Assembly: GCA_026416535.1 (NCBI GenBank)
Contig: JAOAFA010000083.1
Span: forward strand, 1 to 32,628
Length of the DNA: 32,628 nt
Reading direction: 5' to 3'
DNA from: Deltaproteobacteria bacterium
GTDB taxonomy: Bacteria; Myxococcota; SpSt-1050
The notes beneath the pieces were generated by a model. It saw nothing but the letters and a program-made list of their open reading frames with translations, was not told the DNA's origin and did no database searches. Below, piece by piece: positions 13,432 to 23,282 of this stretch (the first letter of the stretch is position 1; each line of letters begins with the position of its first letter). A program made the translations under genes and the position numbers.

Positions 13432-15834
13432 GTGAGGCAATTTATAGTTAGACTATTAATAGCATTTTTAATTCTTGTAATTGGAAATATTCTTTCGTTA
13501 TATCCATTCTCATTGAATCTAAAAGATACATCACCTGATAATCCTGACGATGTCCTGCTTAATTCGTATATTATGCAGTGGGAATACGAACGGATATTTT
13601 CTCTGGATATTAAAAATTATTTCAACACCTTATATTATTATCCATATAAAAATACCCTTGCTTTTACAGAACACCATACGATTAGTCAGCTCTTTTTTAT
13701 TCCTCTTTTCTCCATTTTTAAGGATCCTGTATTGGTTCATAACATAATGATCCTCATTTTATTAGTACTTGCTGGATTAACTATGTTTATCTATATTCAC
13801 TACCTGACTGGCTCATTCTTTGTATCTTTACTTGGCGGAGTTCTTTTTTCTTTTGTCCCATATAGATACACTCATCTTGTTCATGTAAATGTTTTGCACT
13901 GGTGGCTCATTCCACTCACTTTTCTTTCATTTTATATTTACGCCAATAAGATAAGTCTCTTAAATTCTTTATGTTTTGGGCTGACTTTATTGGGAATGTT
14001 TCTCTGGTCAAATAATTTAACTGCCTTCTTCATTATTCCATTTTCAATTTATGCGTTGTTTATTGTTTGGGATAAAGCCCTATTTTTTAATAAAAGATTT
14101 TATATTTACTCTGGCATGGTATTTGTTTTTGTCCTTCTATTTGTATTGCCTTTTCTTTTGCAATATTTCAAGTTGCGTGAAGAGATGTTTTTTGAGAGAT
14201 TTTTATTTGATGTTCGGTACTTTTCTCCACAAATTAAGAATTTTATGGGTGTTCATGAATCAAATCTGCTCTGGGGTAAGATCCTTGGTAAAAACGGTAA
14301 GTGGGAGTGTTATTTATTCCCTGGCGCAACTTTCTTGTTTTTATCAGCTCTTTCAGCTATGTTCTTACCTTTTAATGCTTATAGGAAATATACGTGCCTT
14401 TTTATGGGTATGGCCATAATCTCATTGATTTTTACTTTTGGTCCATATTTCAATGGACTTGAAGGTAAAATTAAGGCGCCTTATTATCTTTTGTGGGAAT
14501 ATATGCCTGGTTATTATGGTATAAGGGTGCCAACTCGCTTTGCTATTTTTTTCTTCTTTGCAATGGCAACGGCTATATCTTTGTCTATAGGAGGTATATA
14601 TGAAAAACTGAAATCTCATGAATTCATAAGGAGTATTTTTATAATCTCTTTTCTAATAATATTTTATATTCTTGAAGGCTCACATAAGATTAATTTAAAA
14701 ACACCATTAAATCATCCGGAAAGAGATCCTTTGTATAAAAAGTTGAAAGAACTACCTGATGGAGTACTATTTGAGTTTCCAGCTTATGTTAGGTACAAAG
14801 ATGCTTCCCATGTTTTTGCAATACTTTATCATAGAAAACCTACGATAAATGGGTATTCAGGGTGGGGTTCAAAGCCACTTGAAAATTTATATAATGCCTC
14901 ACTTAACTTTCATCCTTCGGCTTTAATTGAATTTTTTAACGATATTAATGTAAAATACTTTATACTAAGAGGCAATGTTGCGTCTGAGGTATACAATAGA
15001 TTATCTAAGTTGGATGAGTATAATAGTGGAGTAAAAAAGTTATTTCAAGATGGGAAAGATATACTGTTTCAAATTGATAATTCTTCCTTAAAGATTTTTA
15101 ATTACTATGAGGAAGAGCTATCGGATGCCAAGTTTTATCTTCCATCTTGCATAAGGACTGATAGTAAAGTTAATGGTGGAATAGTGTTTGATTCGACAGA
15201 ACAATTTTATTTTTCTCATAGAAGGAGGTATAGAGATACCCTCGAATTTATAGATAAAAGTAATAACCTAAGAAAAAGGGTATCTACTGATGTTATAGCA
15301 TATAGGGTGTATGAACCCGGCAATGTTCATCTCCTATTGAAGTTTAAGGCTAAACTTCCTGAAGGTAGATATTCTGTGTATTTGCGGAATGTGTTGGTAA
15401 GGGAGAATATTGATATCTCTAGTTTTTGTCATAATGAATTGTCTGATAAAATAGAAATCTCAGACATTAATATACCGATTAATTTGTTGGAAGGAGAACC
15501 TATAAAAATAGATTTTTTGATAAAGAATAAGGAGAAGTATCTATTGGCAGCTGTGGATATAGACGATTTTACAACAGATGGTGTTTTTAGAGTAGGTATT
15601 TTTCTTGAGGGAATTGATGATGGCAATAGAAATATAAGATATGAAGTAAGATATCCTATTTACTCAGATATGTCTGCAGGTGATGTTATACACTTTGGTC
15701 AAAAAATCCCTCTATATCTTACCAAGGGGAGATATAAATTGAAAGTGGATTTTGTCTCAGAGAAGAGATTTTGGTTTTCAAATAGGGGTCTCTTACCTAT
15801 AGAAAGAGAAATTATAGTAGGGAATCAAAAATAG
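13432..15834 (+). CDS. Large multi-pass membrane protein, GT-C glycosyltransferase-like
   Basis: An 800-residue inner-membrane protein. Residues 1-420 hold about ten to twelve hydrophobic helices. An early extracytoplasmic loop carries DNPDDVLLNSYIMQWE and FTEHHTISQLFFIP, an acidic loop after helix 1 as in GT-C enzymes that use polyprenyl-linked sugars. Residues 430-800 are a soluble, probably beta-rich domain (DGVLFEFPAYVRY, YSGWGSKPLE). This arrangement resembles uncharacterised 'glycosyltransferase family 39/YfhO-like' proteins, and the family assignment is an inference. The start is GTG at 13432 with only a weak ribosome binding site (TTTAGG). A TATAAT at 13403-13408 could be a -10 box. 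No partner genes for cell-surface glycans are nearby. Confidence 0.75.
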   Translation: MRQFIVRLLIAFLILVIGNILSLYPFSLNLKDTSPDNPDDVLLNSYIMQWEYERIFSLDIKNYFNTLYYYPYKNTLAFTEHHTISQLFFIPLFSIFKDPVLVHNIMILILLVLAGLTMFIYIHYLTGSFFVSLLGGVLFSFVPYRYTHLVHVNVLHWWLIPLTFLSFYIYANKISLLNSLCFGLTLLGMFLWSNNLTAFFIIPFSIYALFIVWDKALFFNKRFYIYSGMVFVFVLLFVLPFLLQYFKLREEMFFERFLFDVRYFSPQIKNFMGVHESNLLWGKILGKNGKWECYLFPGATFLFLSALSAMFLPFNAYRKYTCLFMGMAIISLIFTFGPYFNGLEGKIKAPYYLLWEYMPGYYGIRVPTRFAIFFFFAMATAISLSIGGIYEKLKSHEFIRSIFIISFLIIFYILEGSHKINLKTPLNHPERDPLYKKLKELPDGVLFEFPAYVRYKDASHVFAILYHRKPTINGYSGWGSKPLENLYNASLNFHPSALIEFFNDINVKYFILRGNVASEVYNRLSKLDEYNSGVKKLFQDGKDILFQIDNSSLKIFNYYEEELSDAKFYLPSCIRTDSKVNGGIVFDSTEQFYFSHRRRYRDTLEFIDKSNNLRKRVSTDVIAYRVYEPGNVHLLLKFKAKLPEGRYSVYLRNVLVRENIDISSFCHNELSDKIEISDINIPINLLEGEPIKIDFLIKNKEKYLLAAVDIDDFTTDGVFRVGIFLEGIDDGNRNIRYEVRYPIYSDMSAGDVIHFGQKIPLYLTKGRYKLKVDFVSEKRFWFSNRGLLPIEREIIVGNQK

Positions 15835-15911: not shown

Positions 15912-17309
15912 ATGGTAAAATGTTTATTATTTATCATTATGTTTTTTTCGCATTTGGTTAACTTATATTCGGAAGAATTTCCCTCTTTGATAGTGTTTAA
16001 TGTAATAGCTGAGGAAGGAGTTACAAAAGGTAAGGCAAATATGCTTACTGAAATTTTGATAGATGAAATAACCAAATTAAATAGATTCAAGGTTATTGGT
16101 CAGAAAGATTTGGATTCTATGTTCTTTTGGGAACAAAACAAACAGCTAAAAAATTGTACAGATTCATCATGTCTTGCCCAAATAGCAGGTGCGATGGGTG
16201 CCGAGTATTATGTGGAAGGTTCTGTTGGTCAAATCGGGGATAGATATATAATAGCGATCAAACTGATTAACGCATACAAAGTGGAAGTTGTAAACAGACT
16301 TATAAGTAAGGTTTATAAAAGTGATAATGCCCTTCTTGATGAGATGCCAAAAATAGTAAAGGAGCTATTTGATCCTAAAAGGCTTAAGAAAGAGTTCGAG
16401 GATGTGAAGGGCGAGGTCTTTTTTACCTCTGGGCTTGACATAGTAAGTGAACCAGTTGGGGCTAAGGTTATAGTTAATAATGAGTATAAAGGGGTGACAC
16501 CACTGAAGATCGAGAAACTAAGGAATGGAAGACATGTAATTGTAGCTAAAAAGGAGGGGTATAAAGATGAGGTAGTCAATGTTATATTGAATAAAGACGA
16601 AATTAAACCGGTTATGATAAAACTTAGAAAGAAGATTTGCTCTGTTAGTGTGGAGACGGTTCCAGAGAGTGCAGAGGTCTTTTTTCAAGGCAAGAAATAT
16701 TATACACCTGCGAGGATTGAGAATGTTACTCCTGGAAAATATGAGATGAAAGTATATAATAAGAAATATGGCGAAAGGAAAGTGCCTGTTGTTGTGATGG
16801 ATGATAATGAAGAGACAAAAGTAGTTGTTGATTTTGAGGCAACAACAATAGATGCTATAAAGAAATATAAAAAGGATAGTGGAACAGGATATTTTACTAT
16901 TGATGTTTTTTATAGTTTTGGTGGAACTTCGTATGGCGATGAAGATCCAATTTCGTCGCACATACTTCAATTAAGGACCAAACTAAATATATTTCCTTTT
17001 CTTATTACTCCTCAGTTCCAATTCCTTGCTACACATAGTAAATATTATTCAGGGAGCTTTTCACTCGTGGCATTTAGTACTCAGAGATTTGAACTTTTTA
17101 CATTTGGTGTAGGATATACGCAAGGTCCATTAGGCGGTGGCCCTGGTGCCGTTTTTAATCTTTACAGAATGAATATTGCCTTGCATTCCATAACAAGGAA
17201 TAATGATTTTCACCTCTTTATTGGATTTGTAGATGGTTATTCCGGTGGGAACAACTTTGTTGTATCGTTGATTTCTCTTGGGCTTGGTTGGGGAAGTTAT
17301 ATGTTCTGA
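15912..17309 (+). CDS. CsgG/TolB-like plus PEGA-domain envelope protein
   Basis: A 465-residue secreted protein. Signal peptide 1-20; then a CsgG/TolB-N-like alpha/beta domain (about 22-155) with the recurring pattern NCTDSSCLAQIAGAMGAEYYVEGSV. Two PEGA domains follow (174-238, IVSEPVGAKVIVNNEYKGVTP; 243-308, VETVPESAEVFFQGKKYYTP). The C-terminal region (320-465) alternates aromatic and polar residues and ends in WGSYMF, a terminal aromatic as in outer-membrane barrels. A role at the cell envelope is likely and the exact task is unknown. The gene at 22227 shares the first domain type. The NifH-like gene starts 7 nt downstream, so the two are probably co-transcribed. Confidence 0.8.
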   Translation: MVKCLLFIIMFFSHLVNLYSEEFPSLIVFNVIAEEGVTKGKANMLTEILIDEITKLNRFKVIGQKDLDSMFFWEQNKQLKNCTDSSCLAQIAGAMGAEYYVEGSVGQIGDRYIIAIKLINAYKVEVVNRLISKVYKSDNALLDEMPKIVKELFDPKRLKKEFEDVKGEVFFTSGLDIVSEPVGAKVIVNNEYKGVTPLKIEKLRNGRHVIVAKKEGYKDEVVNVILNKDEIKPVMIKLRKKICSVSVETVPESAEVFFQGKKYYTPARIENVTPGKYEMKVYNKKYGERKVPVVVMDDNEETKVVVDFEATTIDAIKKYKKDSGTGYFTIDVFYSFGGTSYGDEDPISSHILQLRTKLNIFPFLITPQFQFLATHSKYYSGSFSLVAFSTQRFELFTFGVGYTQGPLGGGPGAVFNLYRMNIALHSITRNNDFHLFIGFVDGYSGGNNFVVSLISLGLGWGSYMF

Positions 17310-17316
17310 GGTGTAT

Positions 17317-18129
17317 ATGGAGAGCATAGCCTTTTACGGTAAGGGTGGTATAGGTAAATCTTTTATAGCCGCTAATATGAGTTATCACTTTGCCAAAAAG
17401 GGGAAAAAGGTTTTACACATTGGCTGTGATCCAAAACACGATAGTACATTTTTGCTAACTAAGGGAGATTTAAGGATATTGACTGTATTGGATGCAATAG
17501 GTGATAAAATAACCTCAAGTAATATACCTGGGATTATTAATAAGGGGAAGTTGGGTATTGAGTGTATTGAGTCTGGTGGTCCCCCGCCTGGTGTGGGGTG
17601 TGCTGGCAGGGGTGTCGCGAGAACACTTGAGTTCTTACAAGAAAATCGTATTGTTGGTTCCTCGAGGTATGATGTAGTGATTTATGATATTCTGGGAGAT
17701 GTGGTGTGTGGAGGCTTTGCGGCACCACTGAGATTGGGCTTTGCTAAAAAAGTAGTCATTGTTACATCCGAAGAGGTGATGTCTTTATATGCAGCAAATA
17801 ATATTACAAAGGCTATTAATACCTACTTTGAAAATGGAATATATTTAGCGGGGTTAATAGTAAATTTAAAGGATAACGAGGCTAATAGGGATATACTACA
17901 TGATTTTGCATGTCGTATTAATTCTGAGATACTAGGGTTTATAAGTAGATCAACTCTTGTATCAAGAGCCGAAAGGGAGAGGAAGACATTAGTAGAGAAG
18001 TTTCCACAATCTCCAGAAGCCAAAGAGTTATCGAGAATAGCCGATATAGTCTACAACCATAAGCTAAAATATAGGCGTCCCACCCCCATGAGGGATGATG
18101 AATTCTTTGATTTTATAAGAAAAGGATAA
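17317..18129 (+). CDS. Orphan NifH/BchL/BchX-like iron-sulfur ATPase (reductase component)
   Basis: A 270-residue member of the nitrogenase-iron-protein/protochlorophyllide-reductase-L family. It has the P-loop FYGKGGIGKS (6-15), switch-I IGCDPKHDSTF (35-45), Cys95 in GGPPPGVGCAGRGV and Cys131 in DILGDVVCGGFAAP. These two cysteines per subunit hold one 4Fe-4S cluster between two monomers in NifH and BchL. The CDPKHDSTF motif is BchL-like, while Phe directly after GKS is BchX-like. Proteins of this family hydrolyse ATP to pass single electrons to a partner such as NifDK, BchNB, BchYZ or CfbD. No partner gene is present in the window. ATG 17317 matches family starts and is preceded by GAGGTG; GTG 17311 is an alternative. 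The substrate is unknown. Confidence 0.9.
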   Translation: MESIAFYGKGGIGKSFIAANMSYHFAKKGKKVLHIGCDPKHDSTFLLTKGDLRILTVLDAIGDKITSSNIPGIINKGKLGIECIESGGPPPGVGCAGRGVARTLEFLQENRIVGSSRYDVVIYDILGDVVCGGFAAPLRLGFAKKVVIVTSEEVMSLYAANNITKAINTYFENGIYLAGLIVNLKDNEANRDILHDFACRINSEILGFISRSTLVSRAERERKTLVEKFPQSPEAKELSRIADIVYNHKLKYRRPTPMRDDEFFDFIRKG

Positions 18130-22226: not shown

Positions 22227-23282
22227 ATGCCGAGATTAATAACATTGCTTGTTTTTATCTCTCTTATAATTTCTGGTTCATTATTTGCTGAAAAAAGGCT
22301 TCAAATTCCTACTCAATCTTCTAATATTGATGCCAAGAAAGGGACAGATGTAGGTGTTGACAAGAAAGATTCAAAAGAGATAAAAAGAGATACTCAAAAA
22401 AATGTAGAGGTGGATAAGAAGGAGATCCAACTAAAGCTAAGATCGGTTGCTAAGAATATAAGTAAAGAACTTGAAAGGCTAAAGGCGGGAGCAATTGTAA
22501 GAGTGGTAGTCAGTAGTTTCTCTAATAATGGGGAGCTGGCAAGGAAAAAAGAGATAGGGACCCTTGTAATGGGTGAACTTATGATTAATCTTTCAAGATT
22601 TAACAATATAGAGCTTATTGAAAGAGAAAAGCTTGCAAAGGTATTGGATGAAATGAAATTAGTTCAATTAGGTTTTGCTGATGAAAAGACGGCAGCTCAG
22701 GTGGGGAAGTTGCTTCAGGCACAGGTGGTAATTGTTGGTGAAGTAGCAGAGGCTGCAGATAAGTTTGTCATTAATTCAAGGGTTGTAGATGTAGAGACGG
22801 CTAAGGTATTGTATCAAGAGGGTTTTAATTCGCCAATAGAAGGAATGATAGCCTTATCAAGTGAATCTCTTGTGTTAAGGAGTAAGCTAGATGCCGCGTA
22901 CAGGTCTCTAATATTGCCTGGCTGGGGACAGTTTTATAACGGGGAAAAAATTAAAGGAGGAGTAATTACATTTTTAGAGGTAGGTCTATTTGCTACTGCC
23001 ATAGCCATGCATATAAATGGTAAAAATAAGGAAGATGAGTATAGAAAAACCGATTGCACAGAAAAGGGACAAGAGTGTATTGATAGGGTTCAGAGATTAA
23101 GGTCAGATGGGGAGGATTTTTACAAGATGAGAAATTATTTTATATATGGTGGAGTTGTCTTGTGGGCACTGAATGTCCTTGATGCATATGTATCAGGTAA
23201 GGATTTTGATTCAGCTCTTAAGATGTCAGATAATAGATTTGATATTTCATTGAGTGGACTTAGTTTAAGTCTTACTTTTTGA
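22227..23282 (+). CDS. CsgG/TolB-like plus DUF5683-like membrane protein
   Basis: A 351-residue exported or membrane protein. Signal peptide 1-21; a charged lysine/aspartate-rich linker (25-80); a CsgG/FlgO-like domain (about 85-200) with VVVSSF, RFNNIELIEREKLAKVL, the KLLQAQVVIVGEV strand and VDVETAKVL. A DUF5683-like region (about 224-350) opens with YRSLILPGWGQFYNGEKIKGG and has two hydrophobic helices (about 244-262 and 293-308). The C-terminus LSGLSLSLTF ends in Phe. Proteins of this layout are envelope-associated, and I cannot name the function. Its stop lies 2 nt before the rlmE ATG, so the two are co-transcribed. The gene at 15912 carries the same N-terminal domain type. Confidence 0.82.
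   Translation: MPRLITLLVFISLIISGSLFAEKRLQIPTQSSNIDAKKGTDVGVDKKDSKEIKRDTQKNVEVDKKEIQLKLRSVAKNISKELERLKAGAIVRVVVSSFSNNGELARKKEIGTLVMGELMINLSRFNNIELIEREKLAKVLDEMKLVQLGFADEKTAAQVGKLLQAQVVIVGEVAEAADKFVINSRVVDVETAKVLYQEGFNSPIEGMIALSSESLVLRSKLDAAYRSLILPGWGQFYNGEKIKGGVITFLEVGLFATAIAMHINGKNKEDEYRKTDCTEKGQECIDRVQRLRSDGEDFYKMRNYFIYGGVVLWALNVLDAYVSGKDFDSALKMSDNRFDISLSGLSLSLTF

Follow-up and report, generated by a model that had tools for sequence, protein, structure and literature searches.

The window, that is the whole stretch of 32,628 nucleotides analysed here, corresponds to contig C84 in the assembly of a member of the Myxococcota (G000; 2.96 Mb, 98% complete). It carries a gene for a NifH-like protein, hereafter H, just downstream of a gene for a PEGA-domain protein. 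The features considered are the following, all on the forward strand.

15912..17309, + strand: PEGA-domain gene (PF08308), ending 7 nt upstream of H and probably outside the system
17317..18129, + strand: nifH-like gene H, 270 aa, PF00142 (E 1.4e-82), Fe protein of an uncharacterised nitrogenase-like enzyme
17338..17361, + strand: P-loop GKGGIGKS, residues 8-15 of H, read from the translation; in alignment A3, G8-G11 and G13-S15 do not vary
17419..17451, + strand: IGCDPKHDSTF, residues 35-45 of H, read from the translation; G36-K40 and D42 invariant in A3
17599..17601, + strand: codon of Cys95 of H, first [4Fe-4S] ligand, invariant in A3
17707..17709, + strand: codon of Cys131 of H, second [4Fe-4S] ligand, invariant in A3

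The frame from 17317 to 18129 (+) is open, with 0 internal stops over 270 aa. In the Pfam scan Fer4_NifH (PF00142) covered residues 3-267 with 277.7 bits, the gathering score being 25, which places H in the NifH/frxC superfamily. Both hallmarks of this superfamily, the P-loop and the two cysteines of the inter-subunit [4Fe-4S] cluster, are present, and Cys95 and Cys131 are unchanged across the 12 relatives aligned in A3. H is not a chance open reading frame, since an ortholog with 73% identity occurs in another species of the genus (G001) in the same PEGA-H-recG order. Translation thus confirmed what an earlier note on this DNA had read from the letters alone, namely an intact P-loop, IGCDPKHDSTF motif and cysteine pair.

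None of the NCBIfam equivalog cut-offs was reached by H. The best model was that of CfbC (NF033200, 289.7 bits for a cut-off of 402), and the scores were 279 bits for NifH (TIGR01287, cut-off 394), 201.7 bits for BchL (TIGR01281, cut-off 345) and 159.4 bits for BchX (TIGR02016, cut-off 331). We then used a tree rebuilt without the long branches, the misassigned L115 row among them, and with no CfbC sequence among its references. A branch (92/85) separated the H clade from NifH+MarH (99/98) and from BchL (100/100). According to AU tests the placement of the window H relative to these two clades was not fixed (p 0.41 and 0.42), and a position of P0001+G001 as sister of the NifH+MarH clade was not rejected (p 0.41). 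The scores refute H as an equivalog of NifH, BchL or BchX, and CfbC was set aside by score alone. As far as sequence comparison can tell, H falls outside the NifH, BchL, BchX and CfbC families, and its motifs bear out the proposal of the earlier note that it is probably a working ATP-driven electron donor.

H is the only strong H homolog in the whole genome. Searching the same genome with PF00148 gave exactly one convincing pair of genes, on contig C114, so that H and PF00148-type D and K proteins, the components of nitrogenase-like HDK enzymes, occur together in one genome.

L028:9579-11378, - strand: D-like gene, 599 aa, PF00148
L028:8273-9604, - strand: K-like gene, 443 aa, PF00148, overlapping the D-like gene by 26 nt

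Both C114 proteins scored far under every NifD/K/E/N and BchN/B/Z cut-off of NCBIfam, and with about 25 bits against the nifD and nifK models (cut-offs 654 and 427) they are not a NifDK pair. They are flanked by genes for DUF374, PGA_cap and Memo proteins and by type-IV-pilus-like genes (the pilus call being made by eye), and no tetrapyrrole or sulfonate gene was found among the genes scanned around them. No radical-SAM gene was seen directly beside H or D-K in this genome. The same separation exists in G001, with H after the PEGA gene on C85 and D-K on C47. The hdk and hxs genes (see below for the latter) are dispersed in this genome and its sister, so that co-regulation is not visible in either of them.

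It is true, as first noted, that no catalytic partner lies within 15 kb on either side of H in the window, but this says little, as there is a PF00148 pair on a different contig of the genome. The description of H as an orphan therefore no longer holds: the D-K pair on C114 belongs to the matching subfamily, with which H co-occurs in 11/11 genomes, and it took a search of the whole genome and its relatives to resolve the apparent orphan. The idea that H may serve a new reductase has gained from this, as H very probably serves an uncharacterised one. Placement in a known clade together with matching partner genes had been named as the outcome that would speak against it; partner genes were found, and H stayed outside the known clades.

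Among 195 genomes of the phylum, K of this clade (>480 bits) was present in G000, G001, G002, G005, G014, G020, G030, G034, G044, G091 and G189. These 11 genomes, and no others, also have H of this clade (>370 bits). The corresponding p-value of 3e-18 is uncorrected for kinship and, like the one given below, overstates independence because the genomes are related. The relatives' genomes are mostly MAGs, and genes in high-GC genomes were called with a simple self-trained caller. Homologs of H, D and K are clustered in seven of these genomes (G002, from the same taxonomic order as the window genome, G005, G014, G020, G030, G034 and G044), with H homologs of 40-53% identity, D-like proteins of 570-706 aa and K-like proteins of 428-458 aa, and the clusters usually also hold radical-SAM genes. 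The order in G020, G030 and G034 is D-K-H-R1-R2 or a close variant, R1 being HxsC4-like. We consider the partnership of the window H with the C114 D-K pair to be close to certain.

A scan of the contigs of named genomes with the window H as single query found no relative. With the K alignment, 40 loci were obtained, nearly all from MAGs of Myxococcota or 'Deltaproteobacteria', plus two from Elusimicrobia. D adjoins K at 39/40 of these loci, the remaining one beginning at a contig end; H lies on the same fetched stretch at 23/40, and a gene with a CX3CX2C motif, a crude marker, is present at 34/40. Between families the identity of D and of K is only about 20-35%. The two Elusimicrobia MAGs (L104 and L111) have radical-SAM genes near their D-K homologs, and L104 has one HxsD-like gene. 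A 'novel nitrogenase paralog' was reportedly described in groundwater Elusimicrobia by Meheust et al. in 2020, which we take to belong probably to the same broad clade as the D-K pair studied here.

Several further arrangements were observed in relatives. A second D-K type, with three cysteines in D and one in K, is possibly Isr-like and partly adjoins the first type. It was seen in G002, G005, G020 and G038 and was discarded as a part of the system of this genome, from which it is absent.

L061:6025-8620: second D-K type
L063:507-3139: second D-K type
L070:8189-10728: second D-K type
L072:1361-4185: second D-K type

G044, which is 70% complete, contains three H genes and three D-K pairs, and clusters with two or three D-K sets were seen at L068, L097 (G044), L096 and L100, which suggests sequential reductions or diverged substrates. 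At L074 and L075 (G019 and G025, same phylum) a bchL-like H is found with D, K and a large protein of ~1230 aa, pointing to chlorophyll biosynthesis in these two organisms.

Few cysteines are conserved in the catalytic pair: K has one invariant cysteine over 37 sequences (C45 in G001 numbering), and D has two over 33 sequences (C185 and C266). By motif they match NifK Cys95-, NifD Cys88- and NifD Cys154-type positions, and for C266 of D the equivalence is also shown by profile alignment. A P-cluster is unlikely with only three conserved cysteines. The simplest reading of these alignments is that DK would hold a single [4Fe-4S] cluster with a fourth, non-cysteine ligand, as in DPOR (BchL/BchNB), where three cysteines come from BchN and an aspartate from BchB (PMC11423573). 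Different from DPOR are the 2+1 split of the cysteines over D and K and the score of H, below the BchL cut-off.

AlphaFold models were made of the sister-species proteins (L077), not of those from C114. For the K model (pLDDT 92) Foldseek returned NifK, VnfK, NifN and DPOR at TM 0.74-0.80, and for the D model (pLDDT 84) NifEN and the alpha subunit of methylthio-alkane reductase. This latter enzyme, MarHDK (PDB 9d9u, 9fmg), also headed the profile matches of D as well as K and stood alongside NifEN among the top fold matches of D, whereas H is no member of the MarH clade, lying outside NifH+MarH (99/98).

D has an extra N-terminal part of ~120 residues, predicted to be a compact alpha/beta domain. 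It matched the N-terminus of the radical-SAM family c4 in hhalign (92-94%, E about 1e-7). When 32 neighbour families were compared, c4, c24, c29, c13 and c30 scored best, at 32-47, and the other 27 reached at most 17; the matches to c24, c29, c13 and c30 are weaker than that to c4 and distinct only against the background of those 27. Sequence searches of the PDB gave neither a relative of the domain nor a match to a known peptide-binding fold, so that a known peptide-recognition fold was dropped as a candidate, as was an origin from HxsD, for which profile comparison gave no match. That several cluster enzymes carry such a domain suggests that D and the radical-SAM enzymes may dock on the same partner; recognition of a peptide by this domain would be one way of using it.

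The genome contains genes of the His-Xaa-Ser system HxsA/B/C/D (TIGR03976, TIGR03977, TIGR03978, NF038313, NF038332), the models of which cover radical-SAM proteins, HxsD and a repeat peptide. HxsB (535 bits, cut-off 370) is followed on contig C83 by HxsA4 (82 bits, cut-off 55) and a double radical-SAM protein, and HxsD (56 bits, cut-off 50) is found on C126, all three above the curated cut-offs. R1, on C92, is HxsC4-like and scored under the cut-offs of both HxsC4 (177 vs 500 bits) and HxsC (98 vs 268), and R2 is located on C51. The C-terminus of HxsA4 reads HCSHASHGSHGS...HGSW in this genome.

The distribution of these genes follows that of HDK closely. HxsB above its cut-off and HxsD are each present in 10/11 HDK genomes, this one included, and R1 is found in 10/11 compared with 7/184 other genomes (p 1e-11, which again overstates independence). 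HGS repeats in the form of the HCS(HGS)nW peptide HxsA4 occur in 9/11. G030 has HxsB and no repeat match, and none of HxsB, HxsD, R1 or the HGS repeat was found with HDK in G044 (70% complete). A tally of 22 genomes with HGS repeats includes non-HGS repeats, so that genomes such as G045, G179 and G187 were not counted as having HxsA4. G091 stands out with 84 overlapping repeat-pattern matches (e.g. C104:65357-65580), against 5-20 in other genomes, and has an unusually long or multiple HGS repeat.

The genes are also linked physically. Six genes of G005 (L062) lie on one strand in the order HxsD-HxsB-H-D-K-HxsA4; HxsB, HxsA4 and HDK share one contig in G002, G014 and G020, with HxsB and HxsA4 within about 10 kb of HDK in the first two; and at L093 HxsB and HxsD come directly after D-K. 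Most of the 40 named D-K loci have no Hxs gene within 10 kb, which for many is explained by frequent contig ends. Five genomes (G086, G088, G102, G103 and G105) have an Hxs system without HDK, which makes HDK an add-on and not a requirement of that system. Operons and co-occurrence thus speak for a functional link, and the five Hxs genomes without HDK, as well as G044 with HDK and no Hxs gene found, speak against it. We regard the association of HDK with the Hxs peptide-maturation pathway as strong and a functional link as probable.

Two features of these loci were observed in passing. The HxsA4 precursors of this genome (C83, L178:8481-8864) and of L062:11834-12286 and L089:15560-15904 have an internal twin-arginine-like segment before the HCS(HGS)nW tail, TRRDLV or TRRDF in the relatives and TRGKSL here, which suggests that the matured protein may be exported. 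Contig C93 of this genome (L177:1480-16664) has radical-SAM genes in a row over 15 kb. Five of them have B12-binding domains, in one case with a fused methyltransferase, and a double radical-SAM protein is encoded there as well; the order c24-c24-c12 recurs upstream of D-K at L116 (c24-c24-c12-D-K). The view of this cluster as an obligatory part of the system is weakened, since a search of the sister genome at E 1e-30 gave no match to c12.

The reading we favour is that H is probably the reductase of a new nitrogenase-like subfamily acting in an HxsA4-type radical-SAM peptide-maturation pathway, with the C114 DK as catalytic half. In relatives HDK is accompanied by radical-SAM genes and by a peptide of His-Gly-Ser repeats, which suggests that nitrogenase-type chemistry modifies the peptide. 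In such a pathway H, as a homodimeric Fe protein, would pair with the D-K complex encoded on C114, hydrolyse ATP and donate low-potential electrons one at a time, from the [4Fe-4S] cluster at its Cys95 and Cys131, to an Fe-S cluster of DK. The latter would be held by the three conserved cysteines, two from D and one from K, and a fourth, non-cysteine ligand, and would be most like the DPOR cluster. DK may then act on the (His-Gly-Ser)n repeat precursor, reducing it once the radical-SAM steps are over or in between them, or else reduce an intermediate of the pathway. The N-terminal domain of D, which recurs in neighbouring radical-SAM proteins, would probably serve for docking on a component shared within the pathway. 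In a more specific form, which we put forward only tentatively, ATP-driven electrons of very low potential would reduce a residue or cross-link in the radical-SAM-modified HCS(HGS)nW peptide, with D carrying a domain for recognition of the peptide or of a partner. We infer the peptide as substrate, as well as complex formation, cluster type and direction of the chemistry.

The substrates of characterised nitrogenase-like enzymes in the literature covered are N2, chlorophyll precursors, the F430 precursor, methylthio-alkanes and isethionate, all of them small molecules. In the literature searched, with most subscription papers outside it, no paper joins nitrogenase-like enzymes with ribosomal peptide maturation, none assigns a function to HxsB, and no nitrogenase-like enzyme attached to an Hxs system was found; the link of HDK to this pathway appears to be new. 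An HDK clade tied to repeat-peptide maturation would widen the nitrogenase superfamily to peptide chemistry, and HxsA4, whose gene adjoins H-D-K in one relative, provides a concrete substrate candidate for an enzyme group otherwise without one. If true, peptide reduction by HDK would be a new reaction class of the superfamily and a new chemistry of ribosomal peptides.

It is rather unlikely, in our estimation, that H and the C114 D-K reduce a small molecule instead, either tetrapyrrole-like as with DPOR and CfbCD or a sulfonate as with Isr, and that the overlap with Hxs merely reflects a shared anaerobic, radical-SAM-rich lifestyle. Characterised nitrogenase-like enzymes do act on small molecules (PMC11423573), the cysteine make-up of D-K resembles that of DPOR, H scores highest with the CfbC model of NCBIfam, though below its cut-off, and the genome has the B12-binding radical-SAM cluster on C93. 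The direct linkage of HDK with HxsD, HxsB and HxsA4, the N-terminal domain common to D and radical-SAM proteins, and R1 and HxsB in 10/11 HDK genomes argue against such a reaction, as do the scanned neighbours of D-K on C114, without tetrapyrrole or sulfonate gene. CfbC and Isr also differ in detail. H resembles CfbC in its best NCBIfam score and in the ATPase and [4Fe-4S] motifs, whereas it stays under the 402-bit cut-off and occurs in a bacterial host with Hxs and radical-SAM partners, and the CfbD partner is described as a homodimer (PMC11423573), compared with the heteromeric D and K here. Isr (IsrBHDK) is likewise a Group IV-type HDK with reduced cysteine sets and a radical-SAM partner, and has been reported in Myxococcota among others (PMC11423573). 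It has one cysteine in D and three in K (PMC11423573), so that the pattern of two in D and one in K found here is a different one, and no radical-SAM gene that could be an isrB adjoins H or D-K in this genome; D here also bears the N-terminal domain, and Hxs genes are nearby in relatives.

An improbable alternative would make HDK a NifEN-like machine for cofactor building or metallocluster insertion, which matures a metalloenzyme or loads metal onto HxsA4. Both profile and fold searches place D near NifE/NifEN, and the tail of HxsA4 is rich in histidine, a potential metal ligand, but D and K together keep only three cysteines, and no NifB-type maturase was seen near the genes. The adjacent radical-SAM proteins resemble HxsC4 and MoaA and not NifB, and a NifB-type maturase was therefore set aside.

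That H forms, with the PEGA envelope protein, a stand-alone ATPase working without D-K is largely refuted and very improbable. The 7 nt gap is kept in the sister species (G001), but the adjacency is restricted to the genus and absent in G002 and other families, where H adjoins D and K; moreover, the cluster ligands of H are intact, and the genome has a D-K pair of the matching clade, with which this H type is found in every case. A functional pairing of these two neighbours, the close spacing of which the earlier note had pointed out, was dropped because the adjacency is seen in the genus only. Finally, H can scarcely be a true nitrogenase Fe protein, BchL, BchX or CfbC, given its scores far under every equivalog cut-off, its position outside the NifH+MarH (99/98) and BchL (100/100) clades and a catalytic pair that NCBIfam does not identify as NifDK, BchNB or BchYZ, in spite of 40-42% identity to plasmid-borne NifH.

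Regarding the rest of the window, the gene 7 nt upstream of H had been described as a CsgG/PEGA protein; the Pfam scan shows PEGA only, and the CsgG domain belongs to a separate gene at 22227-23282, which also has DUF5683 and FlgO matches. A predicted protein of 800 aa without Pfam match is encoded at 13432-15834, and the sister species has a copy of it upstream of PEGA-H (L029:4479-6884).
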